A stretch of DNA of 64,000 bases, taken from positions 12,267,500 through 12,331,499 of the forward strand of contig OZ020593.1 of NCBI GenBank assembly GCA_963971535.1, given 5' to 3'. The notes under the pieces were generated by a model. That model was not told the DNA's origin. It was given only the letters and a program-made list of their open reading frames with translations, and did not search any database. Both the position numbers and the translations under genes were made by a program. Source of the stretch: Notolepis coatsorum (lineage: Eukaryota > Chordata > Actinopteri > Aulopiformes > Paralepididae). Positions 33,117 to 57,400 of this stretch are shown here, piece after piece (the first letter of the stretch is position 1; each line of letters opens with the position of its first letter).

Positions 33117-33470
33117 CTAGACTGTGAAAAGCAGATCGCAGTCATTGGTCAAGCCGTTACCGCCGAAGTTAGCCACCAGCCAGACCTTGTCGTCCTTGTT
33201 GAGCTGGATGAGAGCGCCCCCCGCTGGCCGCGACGTAGCCGTTCTGCCGCGAGGTGAAGGAGTGCAGCGCCAGCTTCCCATTGTTGCCGCAGGTCTATGT
33301 TGCCGTTGTTCTGGTAGATGGAGCAGGAGAACTCGAACTCGTAGACCCCCGGCTGGTCACGGGTGAACACCCCCGACTGGATGTTGTAGATGACGTTACG
33401 GAAGTTGTTCCGTCCTCTCCATCGTCGTCTTCATCTTGTTCAATAGGAAATGACAGTGAGAGATCAGTAT
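33117..33470 (-). CDS. mpx: Peroxidase exon 14: acidic linker plus C1q-like domain, three indels as assembled
   Basis: It follows a 70-nt intron ending in a poly-C tract and CAG. The in-phase start is [21 protein letters not shown], an acidic linker. A C1q-type jelly-roll then reads [73 protein letters not shown] and [14 protein letters not shown], stop 33119-33117. GVFT...PGVYEF and the L.L...D.VWL ending are C1q hallmarks; the first strand (VAFSA type) is not seen. The pieces lie in three frames because of single-base changes near 33409 (one A too few), 33287 (one base too many) and 33217-33222 (one G too many). Read literally, the frame turns Ser/Thr-rich and stops at 33297-33295. Confidence 0.75.
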
Positions 33471-36400
33471 CTGGGGGGGGGGGGGGTGTTGACCGTCTTT
33501 AGTGACATAATTCATAAAGGGTTTAAAGACATCCACTCACCATTGTCCTTCCACGGACTGAGGTCGAAAGCAGGGATGTCTTTGCACTTTGCGAAAGTAC
33601 GTCTGGGACGGTACTGGAAGGGTCTCCCTGGCACCTCCGTGATCCCGGTGTTGTCACAGATGATGCGGGCCAGGGAGGTAGTCCTCAGGGACTCTCTCTG
33701 GTCATCAGTGAAGACTCCGTCGTTCTCCCACCACAGCCTGACAGGGAGAACATGTTCAAATACCAGCGCAGTGTAGCCCCTTTCGTGACTGTGATGCACG
33801 CCAACAAGGTTTGGCCGAGTGGATCCACAGTCCCTTGCTCCTCAATGGCAAACCAACCTAGATTTACCCTGAATGACTGGTTCTAACCGAACCGTTCGTT
33901 ATAAAAGTATCAGAGAAATTTCAAAAGGTACTCACAGTTGCACGAGGGTTTCGAACAGACAAACGTTAGCTTGGCGTTGCTAATAAACATTTTAAATCAT
34001 TTTTATAAACTGGTCAACACTGCTCAAAACGGCTTCATTTCCGGCATCAGGCAGCTAAAGCCGTTTTGAGCAGTGTTGACCAGTTTATAAAAAATATTTA
34101 AAATGTTTATTAGCAACTCCAAGCTTTCAACCCCTAACGTTTGTTCGAAACCCTCGCGCAGTGAGGGTACAAGTGTGGCAAGTGGGCATATATGAACTGT
34201 ACACATTCTATATACATTAATCTATATCTGCATCCATACCCATTACCTACTCATATTAGTTAAACCACTGGCTAGTATGGTTTATTATCATAGTGTATTC
34301 ATACTTGTACCACTGTATATAATACTGTACATACAGTAGCTTAGTATACTTAGTCCGTAGCTTCATCATATACTGTATACTCCACATATTCACTTGTTAT
34401 ACTGCTACTTTGCACTCTGTAGATGGACTGAGGTCAAAAGCAGGGATGTCTTCACACTCATCTTGTGTAAAACCATCAGTAGGCATATCTATGGGCATCT
34501 ATAATACATGCCAGTCAGTGATCTCATCACAGGTTCCTCCGTGGTTCGTCTGGACCACTGCGCTCTGAACAAGTGTGTCAACCGCTCTACAACAGCTTCT
34601 AGGATCATTGTAGACTAGGGGTGTAAAGGTACACATATCCGTACCGAACCGTTTCAGTGTGTACCGTACCGGAACGGCTGTGTACCGTACCGAACGAATA
34701 CAACGGTATGTTAACCACTAACGACCGGCTGTTTCTTTCACAATCTAATATTATTATTTTCTTTACAAGTCTATTATTAATTTCAATATAGAATATTCGT
34801 CGACAGCCCTACAAGTACAATTAGTTACTGCACACTACATCACCCCTGAGTGGAACATGGAAAGCCAAACTTTCCCCTACTGTACCGAAAACCCTTACCG
34901 AACCTTGACTTCAAAACCGAGGTACGTACCGATCATTTGTTTTAGTGTACCGTTACACCCCTATTGTAGACTGATTGGTGAACTAAAAGGCTCAGACTAT
35001 AGAGTTGGAATTATTGCCTTTTTTTTGGCCAAAAGCGAAATCCTTTAATTTCGCCCCGGGGGACATTGACAATATCCTCGTCCCCGGTGACAACATGACT
35101 AGTGAAACTCAACCAGTGGGTTTGAACACCAACGAGATGAAGTTCAACCTTCTCCACACCCACAAGAAAGAAGCTCGACTCGAGTCTCACACAAAGACAT
35201 TGGGGATCTTACCGGCCCGGTAGTATTCGCTCAGAGGCCTGAGGGTAGATCTGGAACCGACCATCGGGAGAGAGAATCAAGAATTGCCAAAAATGGTGAG
35301 ATACTCAACCACTGCTCAAAAGACTTGATGTTGCTCATCATCAGACACACCAAAGATGAGCTACCCGCAGTAAAATCCTCAATTGAACAGCAGCTTGAGG
35401 AAACTAAGGCCGCCTGCAACACCGACTACGAAGCCCTTGTCCAAGACATCAGGGCCCAGATAACCAAATATAAACTATATACAGTATACTGGAGCTGAAA
35501 CTCTCCAAATTCAGAAGGGATACCACCGACTACAAGAACGACTGCACCCCCGCCCCACGAAAACCCATCCACCCAGCGACTGGTCGCGTGTATCCTTTCC
35601 GCAACGGAATTCGGTTTCCTGGTTCCTCTGATTGGCCGCGACCCCCACGTGACCCGCCGGGTCATTTACTGTACATTGGAGGGGGTTGGGTTATGACATT
35701 TACAGGGGCCAGTTTCGAATTGCAGTCTCCCGTAGGTGTTCTTTGAGTGGTTTTGAAAGTGGGTAGTGATTCACATTCCTTTACAGCTTTGGGTAGGGCG
35801 TTCCACATTGATGTGGCATAATTGTGAAACGTGTTTAGTCCCTTGTTTGAGCCGAATCTGGGTTTAACATGATTTGTGGAGCTCCCTCTGGTGTTGTGAT
35901 CGTGGCTGACCTTTGGGAAGTATTTTGACATGTACATGGGTACCTTGGTCGTGTAGTGCATCTTGTAGACCAGGCCCATTGCAAGTTGCTGTACTCTGTC
36001 GTCTACTCTAAGCCATCCTAAGTTATCAAAAGTGGGCAGGGGTGAGGTGGGTTCTAGGAGTAAGGTCAAGCAGTAGTCTGACCAGTTTGTTTTGAGATGT
36101 TTGTAATTTTGTTTTTAGCGCCTTTGAGGTGCAAGCATAGTCGTAGTACCCTTGAATGAGTGCTCCTGCCAGAGTCTTCAGGGTATTCTTGTTTACCAGA
36201 GAGGAGATCCGGTCAAAACCAATTGCTTTTAGCTCAATCAGAATGGAGTGATTGACAGTGTCGAAGGCCTTTTGTAGGTCCAGCATGACCATGCCGCAGT
36301 ATTTGCCCGCATCCACCTCTTGTTTGATGTGGTCGTTCAAATAGAGAAGCCATGAGTCAGTGGAGTGGGATGTTCTGAAGCCAGATTGGAATTCGTAGAT

Positions 36401-39400: not shown

Positions 39401-42400
39401 AGGAGTTCCACTCCCAAAGTGAAAGGATGTTGAGAAGATTTGATGAAAAGGGCTACTACCCAAAGCAGTGTCTTAACTCCGCCATGGCCACTGTAAATCA
39501 AATTGGAAGAAAATAACTATTCCGTAAGAAAGAAACAGAACATCAGGCACCATTAATTATGTCCTTACTTATGATCCATTTAGTTCCGTTATTAAGTCCA
39601 CAGTCATGAAACACTGGCACATTCTATCATCAGATAGAACCTTAAATGACCGCTTCCAACACCTTCCACGCATAAAAGGGCTACCAACCTGAAGGACCGC
39701 CTAGTTAGAGCGGACTCTTATTCAAGGCCAGAGGCTTTTATTTATGGAAGCTTCCCATGTAGAGCATGCACATCTTGCAGCCACATGATCAAAACAAACA
39801 TTTCACGACTCCCACACCGGGAAGAATTACAAGATCATATCGCTAATAACATGTAATTCCACACGCATAATATATTTATTATTCTGCCCATGTCAAAAAT
39901 ACTATATCGGACAGACATCCCGCAAATAAAAAATAAGATTGAACGAACACAGAAGCAATATAAAGCGGGCCGACATTAATTCCCCTGTGGCACGACATTT
40001 TAACGAAATGGATCATAAAATCAATGACCTCAAGTGCATAGGTCTAGAGATGGTTTTTCTTAAGGGGAGACACTGCAGGTGAATAGGGTAAATTTTTTTA
40101 CTAATAGATATCACAATGAAACTTCCCCAGTTGATTACTTATATTAAGACAAGACTTTTTTGTATTACAAGTTTTCTGAAATTGTATGTTTAAATATGCA
40201 AATGAGGCATGATCTACTTAAATATGCACTAATTTGCATATAATTCCAGGACAGAAATCTGAACATTGGATAAAGCCATTTTCAAAATTATAGTTTCATT
40301 TTGTTGACATATTAGAGCCAAAGGTTATTACAGAGGGGATTTTGGATATCTCTTTTTATCACTCCATAAATCAGAAAACACTCCATTCAGTAAATTTTTA
40401 TGGTAAAATTCCATATTTCGCCATGTTTTTAGGAATAAAATGTGATATAAATCATGGTATGAATGAGATATCAACAAACCCTTCTGTAAATACCTTCAGA
40501 ACATAGATATGAATAGAACTGGAAGGTTTGGTGTATGTGAGTGCTACTGAAGTGGAGATTTCTGGCTCAGAGTATGAGGGAAAACTCTTAAAACTCATTT
40601 TTGGGAAAATGCCTTCAAAGTTCTGTATTGTAAAATGCCATATTTTTTTTTTTAAACAGATATTTACAAACACAATACCTAATCAAACCATTAGTAATAG
40701 ACAACCTAAACACATGCCTGATAACTGAATAATAATAATGATGTTATTGAACTGAACAGAACTACACACACGCTACAAACAGTGTAGTACCCCCTAATAG
40801 GCAAAAAAGATTTGAATAGATATCACTATGAAACTTTCCCAATTTGTTATGTACATATAAACTAAGAAAAAATGTATTGCAAGTTTTCTGAAATTTATGT
40901 TTATATATGCAAATGAGGCACTTCCCCATTAAATATGTGCACATTTATGGATGCAATAAAGCAAAATTATGTAAAATAAACAACTAAATGTGTGTTATTG
41001 ACGTTTTATTGTCACTAGTTTCATAGAAGACATGTTTAGGAAGCAAAATATAACAAAATCTCAAAATCAACAAAAAAAGTATATTTGACTATTCACCTGC
41101 AGTGTCTCGCCTTAATAGAAGGGGTGGTAACCATGAACAACTTCTTTTACAGCGGGAATGTGTATGGATTCATCGGCTCAAATCTATGTATCCATCTGGG
41201 ATGAATGAAGAGTTCAATTTGGCTCCATTCCTTTAGGTGAAAGCGATCTACTCTAAACAAAAACTAGTACACTGATTAATGAACGGTCTAACAACCCGAT
41301 ACCCCCAATGTACTGTTTTTTTCTTCCATACAGATTTGTAAATATTGTATTGTAATATGTATCGTTTCATACATAGCCATTATATGCATTCATGTGATAC
41401 TGTGATGATATCAATCTAGCCCTGCTAATTACTGATCATGACGTCAACCTAGCCCATTTGCTGATTGCGGATTGTTACCACCTGCATGTTGTCAAGTACA
41501 GCCTAGTTAAGGTTTGTTTGTCACAACTATCATTGCACACTGATGAAGGCCGGATGGCTGAAAACGTTTTGTGCGTTATACAACTTGTGCATATTAAGAT
41601 AAAATAAAAAAACAACGACTTTCCTCGAGTGCGGTCCCTAATCCATTTTTGTAACTTTTTTTTGGTTGCTCATCACCAGTTGGCCTTTTCTCCACTTACC
41701 TGTCTCCCAGGCGGATGTTCTTGAACTGGGTGGAAATGAGGCAGGCAAACAATGGCCCCACTCTGCCTCCAGCGACGAAGGGCTCAGCCACGCCGCCCAG
41801 CCACACATCAATGTTGTCGGGAGTGCCGTAGAGGTCCAGCAGATTACTGGCCAGTTCAGTGTTGTTCATAACTTCAGTCAGCTCCTCCAAGCACTGGGGT
41901 TGTGACAGTCCACAGAACTCACGCCACTTGTTGTAGCCTACACGAGGAGCGGGTAGCAGATGAGAGTCAGACAGTTATTCTACGTTTGTGAAGGTAGTTC
42001 GTACTTTGAAATATGGGTTCTCCTCAAATATGGCGGCTGACCGAGTGTGTCTGACTCCCACCTAAATGGCACAGACTACAACACATCACTCCATACGTAC
42101 CTTATGTGTATACTGCACCCGTGTATACGTATACTTACTCATAGTATATATTTAGAGTCTAGTGTTTATTGCAAACATATTTATTGAACGCATAATATAA
42201 CCGATGAGGCATACAGACCCTCATTTGCACCTCGATCACACGGCCTACTTGCTCACGTGCGTATATTCAGAGTTAAATTGTATCGTTTACACTGCTTATT
42301 TAAACTTTTTCTACTGTACTATAATTTTATTGACTATATTTATGTCTTTCTACCATTACCATGCCCATACCTCCCCCCCCCCCATGCTGCCATGCCTGAA

Positions 42401-45400
42401 TTTCCCTCAAGGGGATGAATAAAGGAATAACTTAGATCAGGGGTTCCCAAACTTTTCAGGCCGGGGCCCAGAAAATAAGGAGTCAGAGAGCCGCGGCCCA
42501 ATGCACATCGTCAGGCTTTTTTTTTGCCAGGCGACCGATTTTTTAAGCCAAATATCACTTCAATCCTATTAAGTTAGTTCAAGTTAGTTATTCATTTATA
42601 TGTGCTATTTATGAGAGGGCTAACTTGTTGCAAAATAATGATAATAATAATAGCCTCATTAAAATACTATTGTTGCTTCGGTTGTTTTCAGCGTTTTATG
42701 TGCATAATCTGTTATTTAGTTTGAAATGTTCATTGAAATAAGTAGATTTTTCGTTTTTGTTTATTTATTAAGTTAATATAAAACCATATAGTCACATTTT
42801 AGAATAGAATTTTAGAATACAACTAGAAACACTGTCCTGGCCTGCTTCTAAGTTCAGTGGCCTGACAAGAAAAAAAAAATTGGATTTATCTTTTTTTGGA
42901 AATCATCTCGCGGCCCTCCCGTGGCTGCTCGCGGCCCACCTTTGGGTCGCGACCCCGACTTTGGGAACCACTGACTTAGATCGTAGTTACAGAAGGGAAT
43001 GAAGGCCATACCTGGGAGTCCGTGGTCTCGGCCTCTCTGCAGGTTGAGAGCGGCCAGGTCCAAGGCCAGTCTGCTGGAGAACTCAAACAGCCGGTCCCTC
43101 AGCTCATCGTTCATCATCTCGCTCTGTGTGTTGAGCTTGGCCTTCCGACCCACCATCCCCCTCAGGATGGGGTCCAGACCACCTGTGGAGGAGCACCAGA
43201 AACCATGTCCGTTAGCCATGTAACCACTGCCACTGTGGGAGGAATCCACAAAGGGTTTGCGTGGCTTTTTCCCGACACGCAACACAGGACGAGCAACGGG
43301 TGCAATTAAAAAAATGGACAGGGACCTAGCTACATCACCAACACTAATAAATTACACGCCAGCAAGAACACTGCGATCATCAGCTGCTGGACTACTAGAG
43401 ACTCCCAGAAACAGTCAAAAGAGGATCGGTAATGCAGCCTTTATCAACTATGCCCCAAAACTGTGGAACAAACTACCCCAAAAACATCAGGGAAGCAAAC
43501 TCGCTAGACATCTTCAAAAGACAGCTTAAAACCCATCTCTTTGCTCAGGCATTTCAATGATTATTGCTAGATCCAAATGTGAAACACTGTGATTTACCAT
43601 ACCTTGCTATGCTCGCTCATGCCTGTATTTTTTATGTCCGTTCTATTTTATAATTTTTTGACTATTTTTAAACAGAATCATTTTAAACTATTTTTATTAT
43701 TTGAGTTACTGAAAACTGTAAGCGGAGAGCCTATTGGGATGCTAGATCCTAATGTGAAACACTGATTTACCATACCTTGCTACCAGTCTATCTTTTTTAT
43801 GCCCGCTTATGCCTGTATTTTTTACTGTTGTGAAGCACTTTGAACTGCAACCTCTGTATGAGAAGTGCTATACAAATAAAGTTATTATTATTATTAATTA
43901 GCACGTATTTAAATGAGGCAATATGGTCAGAACATGTCCCCTTACTATGCAAATGAGCCTCGTCCAAAGTCGCGCCCAATCCACAAAGCCCGGCGCAAAT
44001 TGCACCGAGCAGTTAACGCGACGCAACTACCATCTTCAGACATGGTGGTAACTAAGCGCAAAGCCCTAAGTGCTATGAAGGGGCATCATGCCAGCATCAC
44101 AGGTGATTATGGCAGTGGTAATTATTGGCATACTCAGGCCTCGTAATGCCAGGCATGCCCTTGAAAGAATATTTCGAAGGAGAATATCACCTTTTTTATT
44201 TAAAGGGGACATGCGTTGCTATTCCTAGCACTATTTGGGCAACGTTACACAATTCCTGTGAGTCTATCGAAGACATCTGTACGTTTCTTTTCAAAAAAAT
44301 GCATTGTTTTATATTTCTAATCAAGTACTCAAAACCATCATTTTTCAGCCTCAAGATTTCAGGCTGTTATGGCCTGGCTCCGCCCATAAGCACTTTGAGT
44401 GACAGTCGAAGTCCACACAGTCTGCGACTGGTAGACGGAGAGAGATAGAGAGAGAGAGGGGGGGGGGTGGGAGTTAGAGAGAGAAAACAGACAGGCCGTT
44501 ATTGATAAGGCCCCCCTCTCCCTCTTCCTTTCTTTTTTTCCCTCTCGGGTGTGCCGACTGCAGTTTGTGGGGGGGGCCTCCCTTCCTCCCTCTTCCTTTA
44601 TTTTTTTCTCTCCCGTTCAGGGGGTGTGCCGTAGATTGTGGGCGGGCATTAGCTACAACCACAGAGCCAATCACATCACTGTCCGCTACCCAGAGCCTGA
44701 GTGACGTCACTCAGGCCTTCAAATCAGGATAGCCTAATTTACTGGAGCAGGAAATGGTCTGAGCTGAATCAGAGCAATCCGCCAAATATGGTATTTGGAC
44801 ACTAAAACACATTGATACTAACTCCTATTACTATAATACAATGCTGGAGACTGAAAAATGACATTTAAACTTTTTTTTCTTTGACTGTGAATAACACTAT
44901 GCTCAAATTGACCAGAAAAATCTAAGCTAATTAATAGATGGAAGATTATTAAACGGAAGGTTTTGTAGATACAGTACTGCATTCTGCCATCCGGACACAT
45001 GCAATTTGAAATATGATTATAGAATATCAGGCATAAAATGGTTATGCGATTAATTAATTACAAATCCTGTAATAATTTAGATAATTTTTTTTGGATCATT
45101 CCATTTGGGCTGTGGGGGGTGCTTCATGTCTGATTTGAGTTCAAGTTCAAATCAGACATTAAGCACCCCCCACAGCCCAAATGGAATGATACATTTTTTT
45201 AATCCAGTCGACTATCAGCAGATTTTGGCCAATGAAAGTAGACTATACAAATCCTTAGTCGGGGACAGGCCTAGTGCACAGCATCTAGATCTGCCAACTT
45301 CATATAAACACTGCACAGCATCTAGATCTGCCAACTTCATATAAACACTGTTCACAGCATCTAGATCTGCCAACTTCATATACATTTCATATAAACACTG

Positions 45401-48400
45401 TTCACAGCATCTAGATCTGCCAACTTCATATAAACACTGTTCACAGCATCTAGATCTGCCAACTTCATATACATTTCATATAAACACTGTTCACAGCATC
45501 TAGATCTGCCAACTTCATATACATTTCATATAAACACTGTTCACAGCATCTAGATCTGCCAACTTCATATACATTTCATATAAACACTGTTCACAGCATC
45601 TAGATCTGCCAACTTCATATACATTTCATATAAACACTGTTCACAGCATCTAGATCTGCCAACTTCATATACATTTCATGTAAACACTGTGCACAGCATC
45701 TAGATCTGCCAACTTCATATACATTTCATGTAAACACTGTGCACAGCATCTAGATCCAACAACTTCATATACGTTCCATAGTAGTGGGGCGGCTTTGGCT
45801 CAGGGGTAGAGCGGGTCGTCCAATGATCGAAGGGTCGGTGGTTCGAATCCCGCTCAAGCCCATGCCCATCCCATTGCCGTTGTGTCCTTGGGCAAGACAC
45901 TTAACCTACTTGCCTCGTATGAATGTGTATGCATGTTGGTGGTGCCTCAGGGCAGCTCTGGCTGCAATTGTAGCTTACCACCACCGGTATGACTGTGTAT
46001 GAACAAATAATGGACTCTGTGAAGCGCTCTGGGTGTCATGAAGAGCGCTATTGTAAAAGCGCTATATAAATGCACCATTTACCATTTTAAGAGTAGGTAA
46101 GGGATATGTACAGATATAGATATAGTATCTACAGATACGTAAAAAGGATTGTGTGCAGTTATGTACAGACAGGTGGCTAGAATTGATTGAATGATCCTTT
46201 TTTTGTCATCGTACAGGTACAACAAAATAAAAATGCAAACCCTAGGTGCCAAGACACAATAAACGATGATATAAAAACAAGCAACGAGACAAATTTTAAA
46301 AAGTATACATAAAAATAAATAAGAGTAAACTAAGCATATAGATGCACTATATTATTGCACGATTTCGCTCATATTGCACGGTAGCTATTCGGCGTATATG
46401 CGGTGGAAAACGCGTGACTATACCTTCGAAGACGATTCTCCAGGGTGTGAAGAAGGCCGTGTGGAGCAGCGCGCTGGGGAACCGGGGGTGCTCGTGGTAC
46501 CGCTCGTCCAGGCGGAAGACGAAGGGCTGGACCATCAGGTGGGCGAACCTGTAGGTAGAGCCATATGAAATCAGTTTTATTTTTTTCCAAATTCCATTTA
46601 ATTTTTTTCCAAATTCCGTTTTAATATTTCAGAATTCTGTATTTTGCTTAGTACGCTCATTTTACCATCAGAAATAGTGTCTAATAAGTGGGAATGAATA
46701 AATTTCCACAATTTAATAAGATATAACAGTCCATTTAATAGGGCTGTCTTAAATACTTCGAAGCTTCGTTCGATGGGATTCGAATATGAAAAATAAATTT
46801 TGATTATTTAAAAAAAATTATAATAATTATATATATTTTTGCAAAATCAACTCTGCCTCTCTTTGTTAACTACAACAAGCAATGCTGTTTGTTATTTAAG
46901 ATGAGGTCGGACTCGGCACTGACAGATTTGTGTTCATTGTGCTGCTTTTATAAAGCCTCAAATGAAGGCTTACAATATTTCATGAAAGCAAAGTGTTTCG
47001 TTTGTCTAAGATTTTAAAATGTTTAAACGTTACAGCACTGACAAAGTTGAAGTGATGTACAAGTCCCACAACATAAAAAAAAAAGTAAAAATATATATTA
47101 TTTTTTTTATTTATTTTTTTATAGTCGATTCCATTTTTATTGCTCAATTCCGCGATTCCGTCCGCGATTCCGTGATCGCGGATTCCATATGGCTCTACCT
47201 GTAGGCGGCCGTGGCGAACACGTTGGCGATGCTGGGGTCCACGTCCTGGTCGTAGCCGGGGTAGTTGGACAGCTCGCTGGCCATGAAGTCGGGGCCAAAG
47301 ACGTAGGGCAAGTAGTCCCTGAAAGTGACGACCTGAGAAAGTAGAGGAACGGGTTGAATTTTTGCGTGCGGAGACGTCACACTAGATTCGCTTAGGTCAG
47401 TGGTTCCCAAAGTCGGGGTCGCGACCCAAAGATGGGCCGCGAGACGATTTTCAAAAAAAAAAATAATAATTTTGTCAGGCCACTGAACTTAGAAGCAGGC
47501 CAGGACAGTGTTTCTAGTTGTATTCTAAAATTATATTATATTGTATTCTAAAATGTGACTATATGGTTTTATATTAACTTAATAAATAAACAAAAACGAA
47601 AAATCTACTTATTTCAACGAACATTTCAAACTAAATAACAGATTATGCACATAAAATGCTGAAAACAACCGAAGCAACAATAGTATTTTAATGAGGCTAT
47701 TATTATTATCATTATTATTTTGCAACAAGTTAGCCCTCTCATAAATAGCACATATAAATGAATAACTAACTTGAACTAACTTAATAGGATTGAAGTGATA
47801 TTTGGCTTAAAAAATCGGTCGCATGGCAAAAAATAAAATAAAAAAAAAAGCCTGACGATGTGCATTGGGCCGCGGCTCTCTGACGCCTTATTTTCTGGGT
47901 CCTGGCCTGAAAAGTTTGGGAACCCCTGGCTTAGGTAACATTAGATTCAAAAGTACAGTACAACGAAAAGAGGTTTGACATCCAAACCTGAGAGCAAATG
48001 GGTAGAGTGCAATAGTAATATACAATGTACTGGTGATCAGATGTATGTACAGAGTTGTAATATTAATATGTACAGTGATACAGGTATAAAGACAGTATGG
48101 TAGTAATTCATACTGGCCAGCAGCGTAACTATTAAGAGTAGGTAAGGGATATGTACAGATGTAGGTATAGTATCTACATGTAAAAAGGATTACATGCAGG
48201 TATGTACAGATATATATAAATGGTATAATATATACAGCATTATTATACATGCCATCATACAGAGTATATGGTTCCCAAAGTCGGGGTCGCGACCCAAAGG
48301 TGGGCCGCGAGCAGCCACGGGAGGGCTGCGAGATGATTAAAAAAATAAAATCTCTTTTTTTTTTGTCAGGTCACTGAACTTAGAAGCAGGCCAGGACAGT

Positions 48401-51400
48401 GTTTCTAGTTGTATTCTAAAATTCTATTCTAAAATGTGACTATGGTTTTATATTAACTTAATAAATAAAAACGAAAAATCTACTTATTTCAACGAACATT
48501 TCAAACTAAATAACAGATTATGCACATAAAATGCTGAAAACAACCGAAGCAACAATAGTATTTTAATGAGGCTATTATTATTATCATTATTATTTTGCAA
48601 CAAGTTAGCCCTCTCATAAATAGCACATATAAATGAATAACTAACTTAATAGGATTGAAGTGATATTTGGCTTAAAAAATCGGTCGCATGGCAAAAAAAT
48701 AAATAAAAAAAAAAGCCTGACGATGTGCATTGGGCCGCGGCTCTCTGACGCCTTATTTTCTGGGTCCCGGCCTGAAAAGTTTGGGAACCCCTGGACTATA
48801 GTATGAGGTGGGTAGTGAAGATTATCATGCTTACTATGATTACAGTGTAGGGCAGTTGTAGACACTCACCTGGAGATAGGCACCAATGATCTTCCGGGTC
48901 TCCAGGTAGAGTCTATCTCCACGCCACATGGGGTTGAGCTCGGCCAGGGCTCGCACCAGGCGGTTGTGCTCACGCAGCATCAGCGTGTGAATCGAGGTCA
49001 GCTGAATGTTCTCATTGCACCGCTCATCACCTATGGAGAGAGAGAGAGAGGCAGGGAGGACAGGCCGTGTTTCTTACAGGCGGCAATGTGAGGATAGGTT
49101 AGGCTAGTGGTTCCCAAAGTGTGGGGTGCGACCCCCAACATTTTGTGTGGGGCGCAAAAAAAAGATTTTTTTTATTAATTAACCCTTTAATCGCCAAGGA
49201 CGCCGTAACACGTCATTCTCCGCCATGCGTAATCTGCCAATGACGCCGTAACACGTCACTGAGATCAATATTTCAAAAATCTGTGATGGCAATCATATTT
49301 CACCCGCGGAGTCTTGAGATCCCCTGTTGATCTCCTCTCAACTCTCCAACGGTTCAAGAGCGCCATCTGGTGGCTGATCGGCGGATCGCCCAAACAGCAA
49401 ACCGGAAACTGGTGCTCATCCATATTCGGTCCGGCCACTCGCGGGACTCGACACAATGGATAGTGATCAGTTGCCAATAACTCGATAAACACTATTATAC
49501 AACCTGGAAATGGATCGCATATTTCAACATCCCATATACGCAATCTTTTTGCTCCACGCTCATCACCCAATGGCCCGAGGAGACTGGGGTAAGTTTCAGC
49601 GTTTATTATTACCGTGTTCGATACAAACTGCTCCGATGATCATATCACCCACACTACATGAATCATCTAACGTTGGCCACGGAATTATAAACGACCCCCC
49701 CCCCCCCCCCCCATCCGGTCAACATCAGATGATAAGTAGTAACTTCTAGAAGCACGTACATTTGAAATTTTTTATCTGGCGCCGATCGCTATCAAACTGT
49801 ATTTGATCATCAATATAATGCATTTAGGGCTATAAATCACGTTCTGCAGAATGCTGCAGAAAACGAACACATATTTATACTTAGACCGTATTTTAGTATG
49901 AATATGTGAATGAAAAAGTTTAACGTTGCTACATCCTAAACGATAGATAATTGACGTTGAATGGGCCATAGTAATGTCAATTTAGCAATACAATTAAAAA
50001 AGTTATAGCCCTGCAAAGAAGGGGAACTTCTCCATAGACAAATAGAGCTGGCGGAGGATGGTATAAGGATGTACATAAGCGTGGCAGAGAAAGGGTTAAC
50101 CTACTACCAAAACGTATGATTATGTATAGTTACTCAGCGTCATTAGTGCACACACTTCACTCCAGTACTTGTGCACTGAATAAAAACTCACAAATGTACC
50201 TACCAACATCCGTCTGGCCACACCCCCATCCGCCACCTATTTCCCGTGGGGAACCGTCTCCCGCAAAGGCTCCCACACCACCTCAGGACAAAGGAGAGAC
50301 ACCATCGGCCTATCAAGCCGAGGCACCCCCTCCTTCATACCCTCGACCAGACCCACCACCCTCGTGACTTGCACGTAGGCGGGGGTGAGGCCCGTGATGT
50401 GGGAGACCACCCGTCCCTGACAGACGTAGGCCTCCATTGAGGGAAAAAATGGGCAGACAACACCCGTCTCCCTCACAGGACGACGTTGCCATAAGTGACC
50501 TATGAGATCATCAGGGACAGGAGCAGGCAGTGGCACGCCGTTTGCGACTGCCGCCATGAGCCCGGGGAACAAGGCACATGCGTACCTCCCCCCACTGAGC
50601 TCGCGTCCCTCACATGCGACAGACTACTGCCCATTGCAGAGCCACTCTCCGATGTGGCTGATAGCAGGGCATCTCGTCGCTGAGTCGGAGGTTCTAACCA
50701 GACACCAGAATATGAGGGACCCCAAGGAGAAATATCACCCCCTGCCATTTCGTCCTGAACGGAAGCCGTTGAACAAAAGAACATCTGCTTCTACCATGTA
50801 ATCCTCCGTTTCCATCAGCCACGGAGAAGCAGACGCACCTTCATCCGGCTCCAGCAACTCCCCGAAACCAGGCCGTTCGCGCCTGCACGCTACCATCCTA
50901 CGACGGGAGCGAGCAGACGCAAAAAGCTTGAGTCTCAAATCCTCCGCCTCGAGAGGAGCCGGCCGCCCAAAGGCAGACGACCGCTCGGCGGCGGAGGAAC
51001 CAGAGCAGGAACCAGGCCATCTCACAGGAGACGGCGCACCAGCTCCTCGGAGAGGCAAGCTACCCACCGGACGTCTACCGGGCGCGGATGACGTCCACGA
51101 CAGCGGCGTAAAACCCGCCCCAAGACGCACGGCAGAGGCGGCAACGGAGAACCGCTGGTGAAGGGTGACGTTGCTAGCGCGACCCCCCGAGGTAAACATT
51201 ATAGCTTAGCTTTTTTCTTTTGAAAATGTGAACGCTTTTACTCAACTTTCAGCTAATAAACATAGTCAAAGTGATGGTAGACAGGCACTTTCTTGTGGTG
51301 AAAGCGAAGAAGGAGGTGTGTATGGCCACACCCCTGCTTATATAGGTGGCGGATGGGGGTGTGGCCAGACGGATGTTGGTAGGTAAAGGTACATTTGTGA

Positions 51401-54400
51401 GTTTTTATTCAGTACTATAAGTACTGGAGTGAAGTATGTGCACTAATGACGCTGAGCAGAGCTACATGACATGTAACTGATAAACACCAATGTCCACAAC
51501 ATTGACAGTCAGTGTTATTATTTATACAGAGCATTCAGAAGCCTGAATACGTTTTGCCACTTTTGTGGCAAATTATTAGGCAAATTATTATTTGAATGAA
51601 AAGAAATCTCCTATCCTACTGTAGGCCTACAACTACATTTTTAATTAGGCCAAATTATTTCACAGTGGCACAGGATCATTTGCCAAGCTTTTGTTCATTT
51701 TCAAATAAAATATAAAACTATAATTGTGTCTTATGTTAATCTCGTCTTGTTAGTAGTAGAGGAAATGGCATGTTTGTAGCCTAAAAGTAATTCTAGCCTA
51801 CATCTAGGTGGGGACCAGGTTACTGTAGGTGGGGCTCAAAAGATATTTCCTAGTACCCAAGTGGGGCCTGATTGAAAAGGTTTGCGAACCACTGGGTCAG
51901 GCGGTGACACTCACACATCAAGACATGGGCGTCATGTTCTATTTGCAATGTGTTTCATACGTTTGTTTGTTTCTCACCAGCCAGGAAGCAAGGCACCTCC
52001 TCTGCGGTGCGGTTGTTCGTGATGCGGGCCCGGGTGGCACACATGTTGGCGCCCATGTTGCTGAAAGGCAGGAGCTCGCGACCGGCGTCCGTGTACAGGG
52101 TATTGACCCTCATGAGGCCCTTGTCGGTGCCGAGGTCACGGAGCGCGCGTGCTTTGACCTCCTCCGCACCGTACAACTGGCCCACGTCAATGAAGGCCGT
52201 GATGGAGTTCATCTGCTGACGCATATTACTGCTCCCGAAGACGTAGCCCGTCCTGCCCGAACCGCACGCCGGCGCGGAGCGGAAGAAAGGGATGCACTCG
52301 CTCGAGTTCTTGCCAAAGCGTGGATCGTTTTCGGGGATCTATTCCAGGGCGACAGGAATAACAATTGTTAGCTCAAGGTAAATGCTCTGGATCTGCTATA
52401 AGTGTCAAGTCTTGTGAGGAAGAGATGTTGCTTTTCATATCCTTGCAGTGGATCTTTCAGATGTTGCTGTATGTGCCAACCTGAATATCAGTCGAGTGCA
52501 TAATGGTCATTCATTTACACAGTTTATGCCCCTTGCCCATTTTGTAATTAATTTGGGCATAAATAAATAATAATGTGCGTGTGTATGTGTATGTGTGTGC
52601 GCATGTGCATGTGTGCAAGCATGCAAGTGTCCAATGCGAGCGAGCATGCATGCATGAGTGTGTGTGTAAGCAATTACATGCATGTATATATTAATTTGCT
52701 CGTGTGTTGCTGCGATACTGACCGGGATGGGGAAACAAGGCTCTGTGCGATCGCAGCTCTTGTCACAGTCGATGCCACTGTTGAACGAGCGGATGACGGG
52801 GGAGTGGGGGGTGAAAGTCAGGTCATGGTCTGTCCACTGGCCAAAGTTGGTCACCAGGTGGGTGTAGAGGTCGTCACTCGTCACATCTGCCGCTTTCATG
52901 ACACGATTGGACACTTCCCTCACCTGGAGGAGAGACATGTCGGGAGGGAACACATTAGAGACCGTGATAATGATACCAACCGTTGTGGTCAGGTTCAAGT
53001 TTTGTTTGTCATATACATTAGAAGGTACAGTGTAGAAGCAATGCAATGAAATGCATTTCACCCTGGCCCTCTCTCAGCCTTTACAACATATTAGTACAAA
53101 AAATAGATAAGCTAACCCGAGAATAATAAATAAAAACAATAGCACAGGGCGGCTGGGTGGCGCAGCGGACATTGCGCTCGTCACCAACACAAGAGACACC
53201 GGGTTTGAATCCGGCTGTCGGCGTTGCCCTCCGGCTTGGGCCGGCTGTCATACTGGCTCAATTGGCAGAGTCAGCGGGTGGAAGTCGATGGGTGGTAATC
53301 TGGACGTTGTGGACAGCGACTCCTACAGGTCGGTTGGGGGACGCCTGCACAGCAGAGACAGGAAATGGCGGGGGTAGCGTGAGCCTCCCACACGTTACAC
53401 CTCGCCAATGAGAGTCCGCGCTGGCAGGTGAAAAGATGCGACAGGCTGCCTCGTTGTGTACCGGAGGGGGACACGTGATGCAAGGCTTCTATCCTCCCTA
53501 CAACCGACCAGTGGCCGTGGGGAGCATATGCGAGCAACGTTCAGGGGAGGGGAGAATTAGAAACAGCGAAATCGGGATGGGAGAAAAATGAGAAAAAGTG
53601 GATCAAAAAGAAAATAAAAATAGCACCATATAATAAATAAAAACAATAGCAACGATCGCATCAATGGCATTCTGGTATGCGAACCAGACCATGCAGGTCA
53701 GATGGGGTGATACCGTCTCTGCTCCTTTTGGTGTTGGGAATGGCGTCCGGCAGGGGGGGGGGGGGGGGTACTCTCCCCTGCACTCTTAAAATTTCTATAT
53801 GAATGAACTTTCTGTACAGCTTGGCAGAAAGTAGTAGTGGTTTTCAAGAGCTGCTCAATATCTGTTCCGATTATGGAGTAAGGTATGACGTGAAATACAA
53901 TGCTAAGAAGAGTGTCATTCTGATTTGCAGGACCAAAAGCGTTAAGGATATTTCTTTTCCTTCTTTTTATCCGTCTGGGCTGGTGCTGGCCGTCTGCTGT
54001 AGTTCAAAATATGTCTGCTGTAGTTCAAAATATTTGGGACACATCATCACTGATCAAATTAGTGATGACATGTACCGACAGCGGCGAGTACTGTATGCTC
54101 AAGCGAACATGCTGAGGAAAAAGTTCCATTTCTGCTCTGATGGGGTGAAAATGTACCAGTTTAGGGCCTATTGCACTCCTCTCTATACTGCCCCCTTGTG
54201 GGTCAAGTTTAAGCAGGCTAGCTTTCATAAGCTTCAGGTTGCTATAATCATTGCCTGAGGATTCTGCCGAGGAAGCCCAGGTGCTGCAGCGCCAGTGAAA
54301 TGTTTTGTGCTGCTGGAGTTAACTCCTTCATGCTCTGCTGAGACACCTGATGTATAAATGTATCCGTCGCCTGAATGTGTCTCAGAACAGGATCATCCGG

Positions 54401-57400
54401 TCGCCGACTCAACCTATAGTCTCAGTGACCTCAAGTTCCAGGCTTGTATCTGGAAATATTGGTACAGTGCCCCGTTTTAGAGCTGCTATTGGTTTATGTT
54501 TTTATTAGTGCGATGTCATTTGTTGATGTTTTTTTTTTACTCTGTGGACCCTGTGTCTGTTAATAAAGATGATTGATTGAATAAATAACTAATCCACAGC
54601 ATCCGAGGGGAGATGAGAGAAAAGGCTATACGCTGGGTGACTAGTGTCCTTCATAATCCAGAGTTTCTTCCTGCAGTGGGTAGTGTAAATTACCTGTAAC
54701 TGTGGTAATCACTTTTATAATTTGTTATGCTGTTTTCACTATCCTGATCAGGTGTTTATGATCCCATGCTGCGACACTGCTGCCAAACCATACACATGGT
54801 TCAGACGTACTTCTCAAAACAGGCAAGAAGGTCTGCTAAAGGCGTGAGATAATTTCGCTTGTTTTACGAACGTAAACAAGCTTAAATGGAAATATTTTTG
54901 TTGAGAAAAATATGATTTTACATCTTAAATACAAGTTAAAAAGGTATATTTTTTTTACAGTGCAAGTGACAATTAGGTTCCCCCTCTGGGTCAAATTACT
55001 GCGAGAAAATACATATAGCATTATTAATACCGTACCCAATTAAGAAAGAATCTAAATACAATGTACAATGTATTTGCCGATATGTTTATGTATACCAGTG
55101 GGAGCAGGTTGTTGTTGATTTTCCGGTTGGGGTCCCAGCCCTTTGGCTCCGAGATCCCATCCTGGTACTCCGCAGGTAACCAGCGTGTGAAGGGCGTGTT
55201 GGAGGACCCTCGACGAGGGTGTTCCCTGAAGAGGAGAAACCACAGATTTATCTCTTCATCTAAGCATGCTAAACATCTTAACCTTGATGATGATAGGTTT
55301 GTATTGTAACTAGGGCTGTCCCCGACTAAGGATTTGGATAGTCTACTTTGAATATTTTATTTTTTTATTTTTTTTCATTCCATTTGGGCTGTGGGGGGTG
55401 CTTAATGTCTGAAGGAGTTGACGGAAGGCTCCTTGTCCTCTGCAAAAGCATGCAATTGGTCCACTGATGGATACATCTTGATATTTGTCTAGTCTAGTGT
55501 GTTCATTAGACGGGTGAAATCCTCTTTCAGTGCCTCTGTGCCCGTTTTCTTAGGCAGTTAGCCTCTGGTATGCATGCCATTAGCCACGCTTCTAGGCCTC
55601 TTTTCTTTTGGAAAGAATGATAAATTATAATATTTTTTTTTGTGCATTAGACTAAGAGGTTGACAGTCTACTACGGCTCCTTTCGGTCGATAATACAGAA
55701 GGTTAAGCCTTTCACAACCACACTACAAAAGGTTAACCCTTTCACTACCACACTGCAGACGGTTCAATTATGAATTGAAAATGGGGGACCCTGATGTAAC
55801 CAAGACGAAAGTCTCTCTGGTCTGCATCCCCTTAACAATTGTATGTATTGAGCTGTACTGTATTGTACCCATTCTGTAATCTGTTAATAAAGTGTTCAAT
55901 CAATCAATCTGTAGTGTGGTAGTGAAAGGGTTAAAAAGATAAAATAATAATTTCTAAGTACATAAATAAATAGGTCCGACAGGAACGATGGCAATAAAGA
56001 TGATAAAATAATAATAACCCGACTTGACAGACAGATATGTTGCTAGGCAGCTTCCGCACCTGTTGTTGCAGGCACTGGTGGCAAGGCGGTATTTGTCCAC
56101 ATTGGGCACTGCTTTGTCCACATTGGGCGCTGCTTTGCAGTTAGGAGCATGAGACCTGGCAGAGCAGCCAGTCAGCTCAGCAATGGTCTCCAGGTCCTCC
56201 TCAGAGATCAGATCTGAATGGCAGAGGCAGGGGGGAAAAAAAGAATACAGTTAGCTTCTCATTATTATGCACCTGAAAATGCCAGGATAAAAGACTGGAG
56301 AACAAATTGATCCCCCTCACTATACTTTTAAGGACCATCACAGAGTTGTTTACACACCTGCAACTGTCACACAGCCTGTGATTCGACTGTTCTGCTTCAT
56401 GTATGCCCCTTTGTAATTTTATTTGGTCGTTTGATGAGTTTTAATTATTCCCTTAACTCTGTGATGTACCATCCGTCTCGTTTCTATTTATTTAATTTTT
56501 TATTTTATTGGCCTATTTCCCTTATATACCCTTCGAGGGGACCTTTTGTCCTCTCGCCAGGCAGTCATTGAAAATAAATTAATCATGGGCGGCTACGTGG
56601 CGTAGTGGGCAAGGCGCTCGCCACGAATGACGGAGACGCTGGGCTTGCCTGTTCGAGCCCAGCGCTCCACATTGCTTTCAGTTTAGCTGGTCGTCCGCAC
56701 TAATACACATTGGCCGTATTAGGGGGTGGGAAACTAATGGGTGGGGATCGGGCGTTGTGGACAGCGACTGCTACAGGTCGGTTGGTGCGCCTGCGCAGTA
56801 GAATCAGGAAGTGTCGGGGGCAGCGTGAGCCTGAGAGATCGAGCTGCGCAGGTGAAAAGATGCGACTGCTGTTACCTCAAGTACCGGAGGGGACTTGTGC
56901 TATGTATGACTTAGTCCACATTGCAGCCGGCTTGTGGGAGGCAAGAAACAGCGTTCGTGACAGGGGAGGGTTGAATTGGATGATATACGAAATTGGGATG
57001 GGAGAAAAATATAGAAAATGGGAGAAAAAGTGGATAAAAATTTGTTTTTAACTGACCTGCCTGGTTAAATAAAAATAGAACAGACCTGTTGCGTTAATGG
57101 AGCGCTTGCTTATCTGGCGCCCCAATAGGGACCGCTTCTGGATCAGGTGGATGGCACTCTCCATGTAGTTAGCAGCGCGCACCGCTGTCCGGGTCTGACC
57201 AGAAGGCTGCTTCATCAGCCGCAGGATGTCAGAGGGCGTGGCTGCATGCCTCCGCACGCGCGCTAAGCTCCTATGCCGGAAGATAAATTACACCTGGTTG
57301 GAGTTTCTCATGCCTTGATATTGTTGGTTTATGTAGACATGTTTGAAGGGTTAAAAATACATATTCATCATAAATCCATACATCAATGGATGTTGTGTAG

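Follow-up and report, generated by a model that had tools for sequence, protein, structure and literature searches.

Many introners are non-autonomous DNA transposons, and in some introner families the target duplication yields splice sites; in most, the length of the mRNA is left unchanged (PMC9860276, as excerpted). The same excerpts of this 2022 survey report no gain pattern in vertebrates. According to PMC2746811, PMC3151243 and PMC3257199, vertebrates have gained introns very rarely and by a mechanism that is obscure; the title of the last of these argues for extensive intron gain in early placental mammals. The nearest vertebrate case found in the open-licence literature is intron 3 of the notothenioid slc26a2 gene, formed by the transposon-like element NTE-1, within whose direct and inverted repeats the GT and the AG lie (PMC12357937). 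In maize, Ds/Ds1 insertions have been described as acting as introns (Dennis 1988, Wessler 1991 and Giroux 1994, as cited in excerpts of PMC3260210). A further route, SOS splicing, is excerpted from a review as a pathway by which DNA transposons are removed from animal mRNA, with ligation by RTCB and not by the spliceosome (PMC13247085).

The locus described here lies in a window of 64,000 nucleotides, which is the whole stretch of Notolepis coatsorum DNA that was analysed. With slc26a2 intron 3, as excerpted, it has in common the teleost host, a DNA-transposon-like element in an exon, and a GT and an AG borne by repeats. It differs in its 8-nt hAT-like duplication, in being a single and younger copy, and in having empty-site paralogs in the same genome, whereas NTE-1 is described with 4-nt direct repeats, tgt/aca ends and a second element nested within, and is common to five species (PMC12357937). 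The likeness to maize Ds/Ds1 would be that of a hAT element removed from the mRNA as an intron; in the plant, however, the excerpted account has splicing from the message reported (PMC3260210), whereas the present case is known from sequence alone. Like introners, the element in the window has the features of a DNA transposon and takes a splice site from its duplication, but introners are described as occurring as many introns, and here a single host-gene exon is concerned. The mechanism is therefore one already known, of which the window would offer an unusually clean vertebrate example in the form of a putative intron. Since an empty site, an element family and a young intron-like insertion are found together in one genome, the mechanism of intron birth becomes directly testable.

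The host gene, which the sequence-only reading had taken for a vertebrate one, is a minus-strand gene of the eosinophil/myeloperoxidase type (Pfam PF03098, E 4.5e-46), and the best of the protein relatives listed are from spiny-rayed teleosts (Trachinotus anak, 78%). Its parts are given in the order in which they are read.

55093..57681, minus strand: N-terminal region, four tblastn segments (57681-57565, 57278-57081, 56217-56059, 55227-55093)
52723..52923, minus strand: peroxidase exon, open frame
51978..52338, minus strand: peroxidase exon, open frame
48870..49030, minus strand: peroxidase exon, open frame
47199..47332, minus strand: interrupted exon, upstream half, 134 nt
46424..46548, minus strand: interrupted exon, downstream half, 125 nt, carrying FAH
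43012..43182, minus strand: peroxidase exon, open frame
41700..41937, minus strand: peroxidase exon, open frame
33541..33737, minus strand: last peroxidase exon, open frame
33117..33430, minus strand: C1q relic; relative to paralog A it has two frameshifts of +1 and two deletions (27 and 18 nt)

The FAH of the downstream half contains the proximal heme histidine. A coding tandem repeat at 56217-56059 adds 7 residues, in frame, relative to other fish. A protein search of the genome gave eight matches. Two are the halves of the exon in the window; the other six are separate loci, and in all of these six the exon is unbroken (identities 94, 89, 60, 51, 46 and 42%). The closest of them, paralog A on C24, matches the window at 251 of 258 nt (7 differences) and carries CCTACAGG once, which makes it an exact empty site; paralog B is likewise uninterrupted at the DNA level. 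By ungapped projection, five paralogous loci have splice-site-like exon ends at corresponding positions, and the sixth, L086, has none there. In all 10 aligned fish proteins the motif F(A/S)TAA(Y/F)RFAH is in one piece, with no residue gained or lost. Because the exon is intact in 6/6 paralogous loci, the element was inserted into an exon and did not invade an old intron, and this central claim of the earlier reading is borne out by the exact empty site as well.

The element and the two copies of its target-site duplication are placed as follows.

46556..47197, minus strand: hAT-like non-autonomous element, 642 bp, with ends TAGAGCCATATG[G/A]AATC
47198..47205, minus strand: target-site duplication CCTACAGG, upstream copy on the gene strand, providing the CAG/G of the putative 5' splice site
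46548..46555, minus strand: target-site duplication CCTACAGG, downstream copy on the gene strand, providing the putative 3' splice site CCTACAG/G

A 642-bp element of hAT-like character with inverted ends and a perfect 8-bp duplication had been claimed, and both the structure and the assignment hold. The duplication, CCTGTAGG on the forward strand and CCTACAGG on the gene (minus) strand, is identical at 8/8 positions in its two copies, and the inverted 17-bp ends match at 16/17. The short inverted ends of hAT elements are of the type (C/T)A(A/G)NG, with which the TAGAG present at both ends is in keeping. Within the window, TAGAGCCATATG is found at 0 mismatches at the two element ends only. A chance inverted repeat is rejected by the existence of a large family: in the 3.42-Gb genome the exact 17-bp family end occurs 6467 times (3253 forward, 3214 reverse; reversed control 0). 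A DNA search in which 40 of 3355 first-look candidates were scored yielded the window copy and 39 others, the latter near full length and 89-94% identical, besides three short pieces. A consensus was drawn from 31 distinct full-length copies besides that of the window, taken from about 75 loci; the window copy, repeat fetches, identical sequences and copies outside 560-720 bp were excluded, and the copies were selected for a duplication within two mismatches. In this pre-selected set the 8-bp duplication is perfect in 28/31 copies and has one mismatch in 3. Over 637 positions the other copies show 10 to 26 differences from the consensus and the window copy 22 (3.45%), of which 7 are substitutions private to it. 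The family is large and looks like that of a non-autonomous hAT transposon. Five longer copies (L024, L026, L044, L061 and L064) have the same ends and share a zinc-finger-like ORF piece (around PNDFYAS.DKVFCKFCQ), perhaps the relic of an autonomous partner. When an autonomous hAT transposase was sought in the longer copies, none of 3 ORF pieces matched a Pfam family above the cut-off, and a protein search with one zinc-finger-like piece returned no relatives.

The proposed intron and its branch-point-like motif occupy the following positions.

46549..47198, minus strand: proposed new phase-2 intron, 650 nt, corresponding to the element plus one duplication, GT...AG
46570..46574, minus strand: branch-point-like motif CTGAT, whose A, at 46571, precedes the final G of the acceptor by 22 nt

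Read from 47198 down to 46549, the putative intron runs CAG/GTAGAG ... CTCTACCTACAG/G and falls in phase 2 of an Arg codon. The GT donor, the AG acceptor and the branch-like A, 22 nt before the acceptor, stand where they had been claimed, and the excision of 46549-47198 leaves a fused exon of the expected 259 nt (133+125 nt joined, plus the first G). A canonical GT-AG pair, a branch motif and a kept frame are all present, as judged from the letters of the DNA. The restoration of the reading frame with no base changed is true of the sequence, but it is automatic here: a duplication ending in AGG always restores the frame upon removal of a GT-AG intron, and restoration is therefore not in itself evidence of splicing. 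The donor of the putative intron would be a weak one. It lacks +4A, +5G and +6T and, with a vertebrate matrix, scores 5.32, the seventh of eight donors scored; the natural donor of the same exon scores 4.90 with the same matrix, below the new one. The acceptor tract contains 11/16 pyrimidines, the six other acceptors scored ranging from 10 to 16.

The CTGAT motif is peculiar to this copy. At element position 625 the window copy has a T, and the 31 others have 30 G, 1 A and 0 T, so that the private G>T creates the motif. Among 1974 single changes of the consensus, this G>T is the one that creates a YTNAY motif 18-45 nt from the acceptor, and the chance of a branch-creating change among the 7 private substitutions is p about 0.0035. 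In the family consensus the sole such motif is a TTCAT that may serve as a branch site too, its A lying at 17 nt from the acceptor; TTAAC is found at 26 nt from the acceptor in 2/31 other copies. The private substitution is suggestive of a working intron, a grade chosen because the motif had been pre-selected by the sequence-only reading, the rule that defines such a motif is permissive, and the calculation takes mutation to be uniform.

We consider it probable that a teleost peroxidase gene of recent duplicate origin had one of its exons split by a hAT-type element, which is spliced out as an intron. A copy of the high-copy non-autonomous transposon entered the exon by cut-and-paste insertion, whereby CCTACAGG was duplicated. 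The last G of the upstream duplication and the first T of the element would together supply the GT donor (CAG/GTAGAG), the AG acceptor would come from the CCTACAG of the downstream duplication, and the CTGAT inside the element end could act as branch site. Of this explanation the insertion, the duplication, the empty site, the family, the open frame and the presence of the signals are observed. Splicing itself and the continued use of the copy are what we infer: the spliceosome would excise the element together with one duplication (650 nt), and the resulting mRNA would equal that of the empty site.

The main alternative is that the insertion disabled a young duplicate that was redundant. The frame would then be still intact for lack of time, and the transcripts would be wrongly spliced, keep the element or lack the exon. 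This we regard as unlikely. In its favour, the window copy is young, its divergence from paralog A being 26/1197 in introns and, close to this, 22/1227 in exons. Over 409 codons, the branch leading to it has accumulated 11 non-synonymous changes and 5 synonymous ones (an omega, or dN/dS, of about 0.67), numbers too small to be distinguished from neutrality. The C1q tail is broken, and the weak donor would fit as well. Paralog A is itself truncated, with the first exon of the set not found and the second present without its first part, whereas in paralog B all exons of the set are found and the collagen and C1q tail is retained as far as fetched (C24); the complete gene B could do the work alone. 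The collagen part is lost in both paralog A and the window copy, and these two appear to have become C1q-less peroxidases. As a separate observation, exon 52923-52723 is identical to that of paralog B (L092) at 201/201 positions. As the other exons show differences of about 1-6%, this has the look of a mosaic duplicate or of gene conversion. The view of the host as a working gene stands as regards its open frame, with 0 stops and no frameshift in the 1588 nt of peroxidase coding sequence covered, and is weakened by the status of the gene as a young extra copy with a branch dN/dS of about 0.67, which leaves room for a loss of function.

Against disruption stands the distribution of indels between the window copy and paralog A. 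There are 0 in about 1227 nt of alignable exonic sequence (the unalignable first part of one exon being left out of this count). The C1q relic, with a length of about 370 nt, has 4, and the introns have 19 over the 1197 nt aligned, two of the seven blocks having been set aside as non-collinear. The contrast between relic and exons has p = 0.003, computed post hoc with a relic length of our own estimate, and since paralog A retains an open C1q frame, this stretch is imperfect as an unconstrained control. The absence of exonic indels in comparison with the relic and the introns argues for a kept peroxidase frame, although the frame data span the whole time since the duplicates split and not just that after the insertion. 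The 7 private substitutions of the element in 637 nt (1.1%), set against about 1.6% neutral change on the branch by our estimate, suggest by rough dating that the insertion came before the greater part of the branch. The private branch-site substitution speaks against disruption too, as does the insertion site, for which the chance is 4.3% for AGG on the gene strand and <1% for CAGG. Function of the host gene after the insertion is likely.

The site preference of the family has been determined from its ends. AGG precedes 280/6467 exact 17-bp ends (4.3%), which is 2.8 times the 1.6% of an equal-base expectation; AGG alone would thus have a 4.3% chance in any exonic insertion. CAGG followed by the 12-bp end occurs at 58 places genome-wide, CAGG standing before <1% of family ends. 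In 33 sampled duplications, read on both strands, C or G is preferred at the outer positions. It seems that the target preference itself favours proto-splice sites. AGG lies before a family end at 288 places, 287 besides the window copy, and the flanks of 97 of these 287 (57 CAGG and 40 other) were examined as a partial test of the suggestion that the family has given rise to many such introns. That suggestion is unsupported, for no second clear host exon was recognised among these 97 copies. Pfam was applied to 8 junction or flank ORFs (from lists of 124 and 40) and the remainder was judged by eye; at 29 of the 57 CAGG loci there was no accepted far end within 1500 bases, with just 30 upstream bases looked at. 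Three copies were considered more closely as host-exon cases. L013, with the duplication GCCTCAGG, is a weak candidate: its surroundings resemble an acceptor and a donor, and the RING-like frame there is weak (E 0.0033, below the cut-off), but the frames on the two sides disagree. The frame around L041 is open and resembles a hAT transposase (PF14372, E 0.00091, below the cut-off). L110 lies inside a frame of THAP type (PF05485, E 3.3e-5), which excision would let run on past the far side; the THAP ORF of L110, with L159, is in turn repetitive, 150 of 4092 first-look candidates having been scored. Exact excision would restore both frames, but both are repeat-derived ORFs. A bolder reading, by which an AGG-biased hAT family of some thousands of copies would keep making ready-to-splice introns, new copies persisting wherever a further change, of the kind that gave CTGAT, strengthens the branch site, would make of it a vertebrate introner caught early; we hold this to be improbable. 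The size of the family permits a genome-wide count of what decides the survival of exonic insertions.

Removal of the element from the mRNA by RTCB-ligated SOS splicing instead of the spliceosome is highly improbable. SOS splicing is reported to require inverted ends, and those of the element are near-perfect. That such a pathway is described in animals, as excerpted from the review PMC13247085, also counts for it; however, the canonical GT-AG stands exactly at the restoring positions and is accompanied by a branch motif, which makes a second pathway unneeded. The idea of an old intron that the element entered, and that was afterwards cut back to the sequence of the element, can be dismissed, as nothing was found in its support, the exon is unbroken in 6/6 paralogous loci (with matching splice-site-like ends in five), paralog A presents the exact empty site, and the exonic target duplication is flush on both sides with nothing intronic beyond the element. 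The introns of the peroxidase gene harbour another repeat, three exact copies of whose end, GGTTCCCAAAGTCGGGGTCGCGACCC, lie at 47402 and 48270 on the plus strand and at 42944 on the minus strand.
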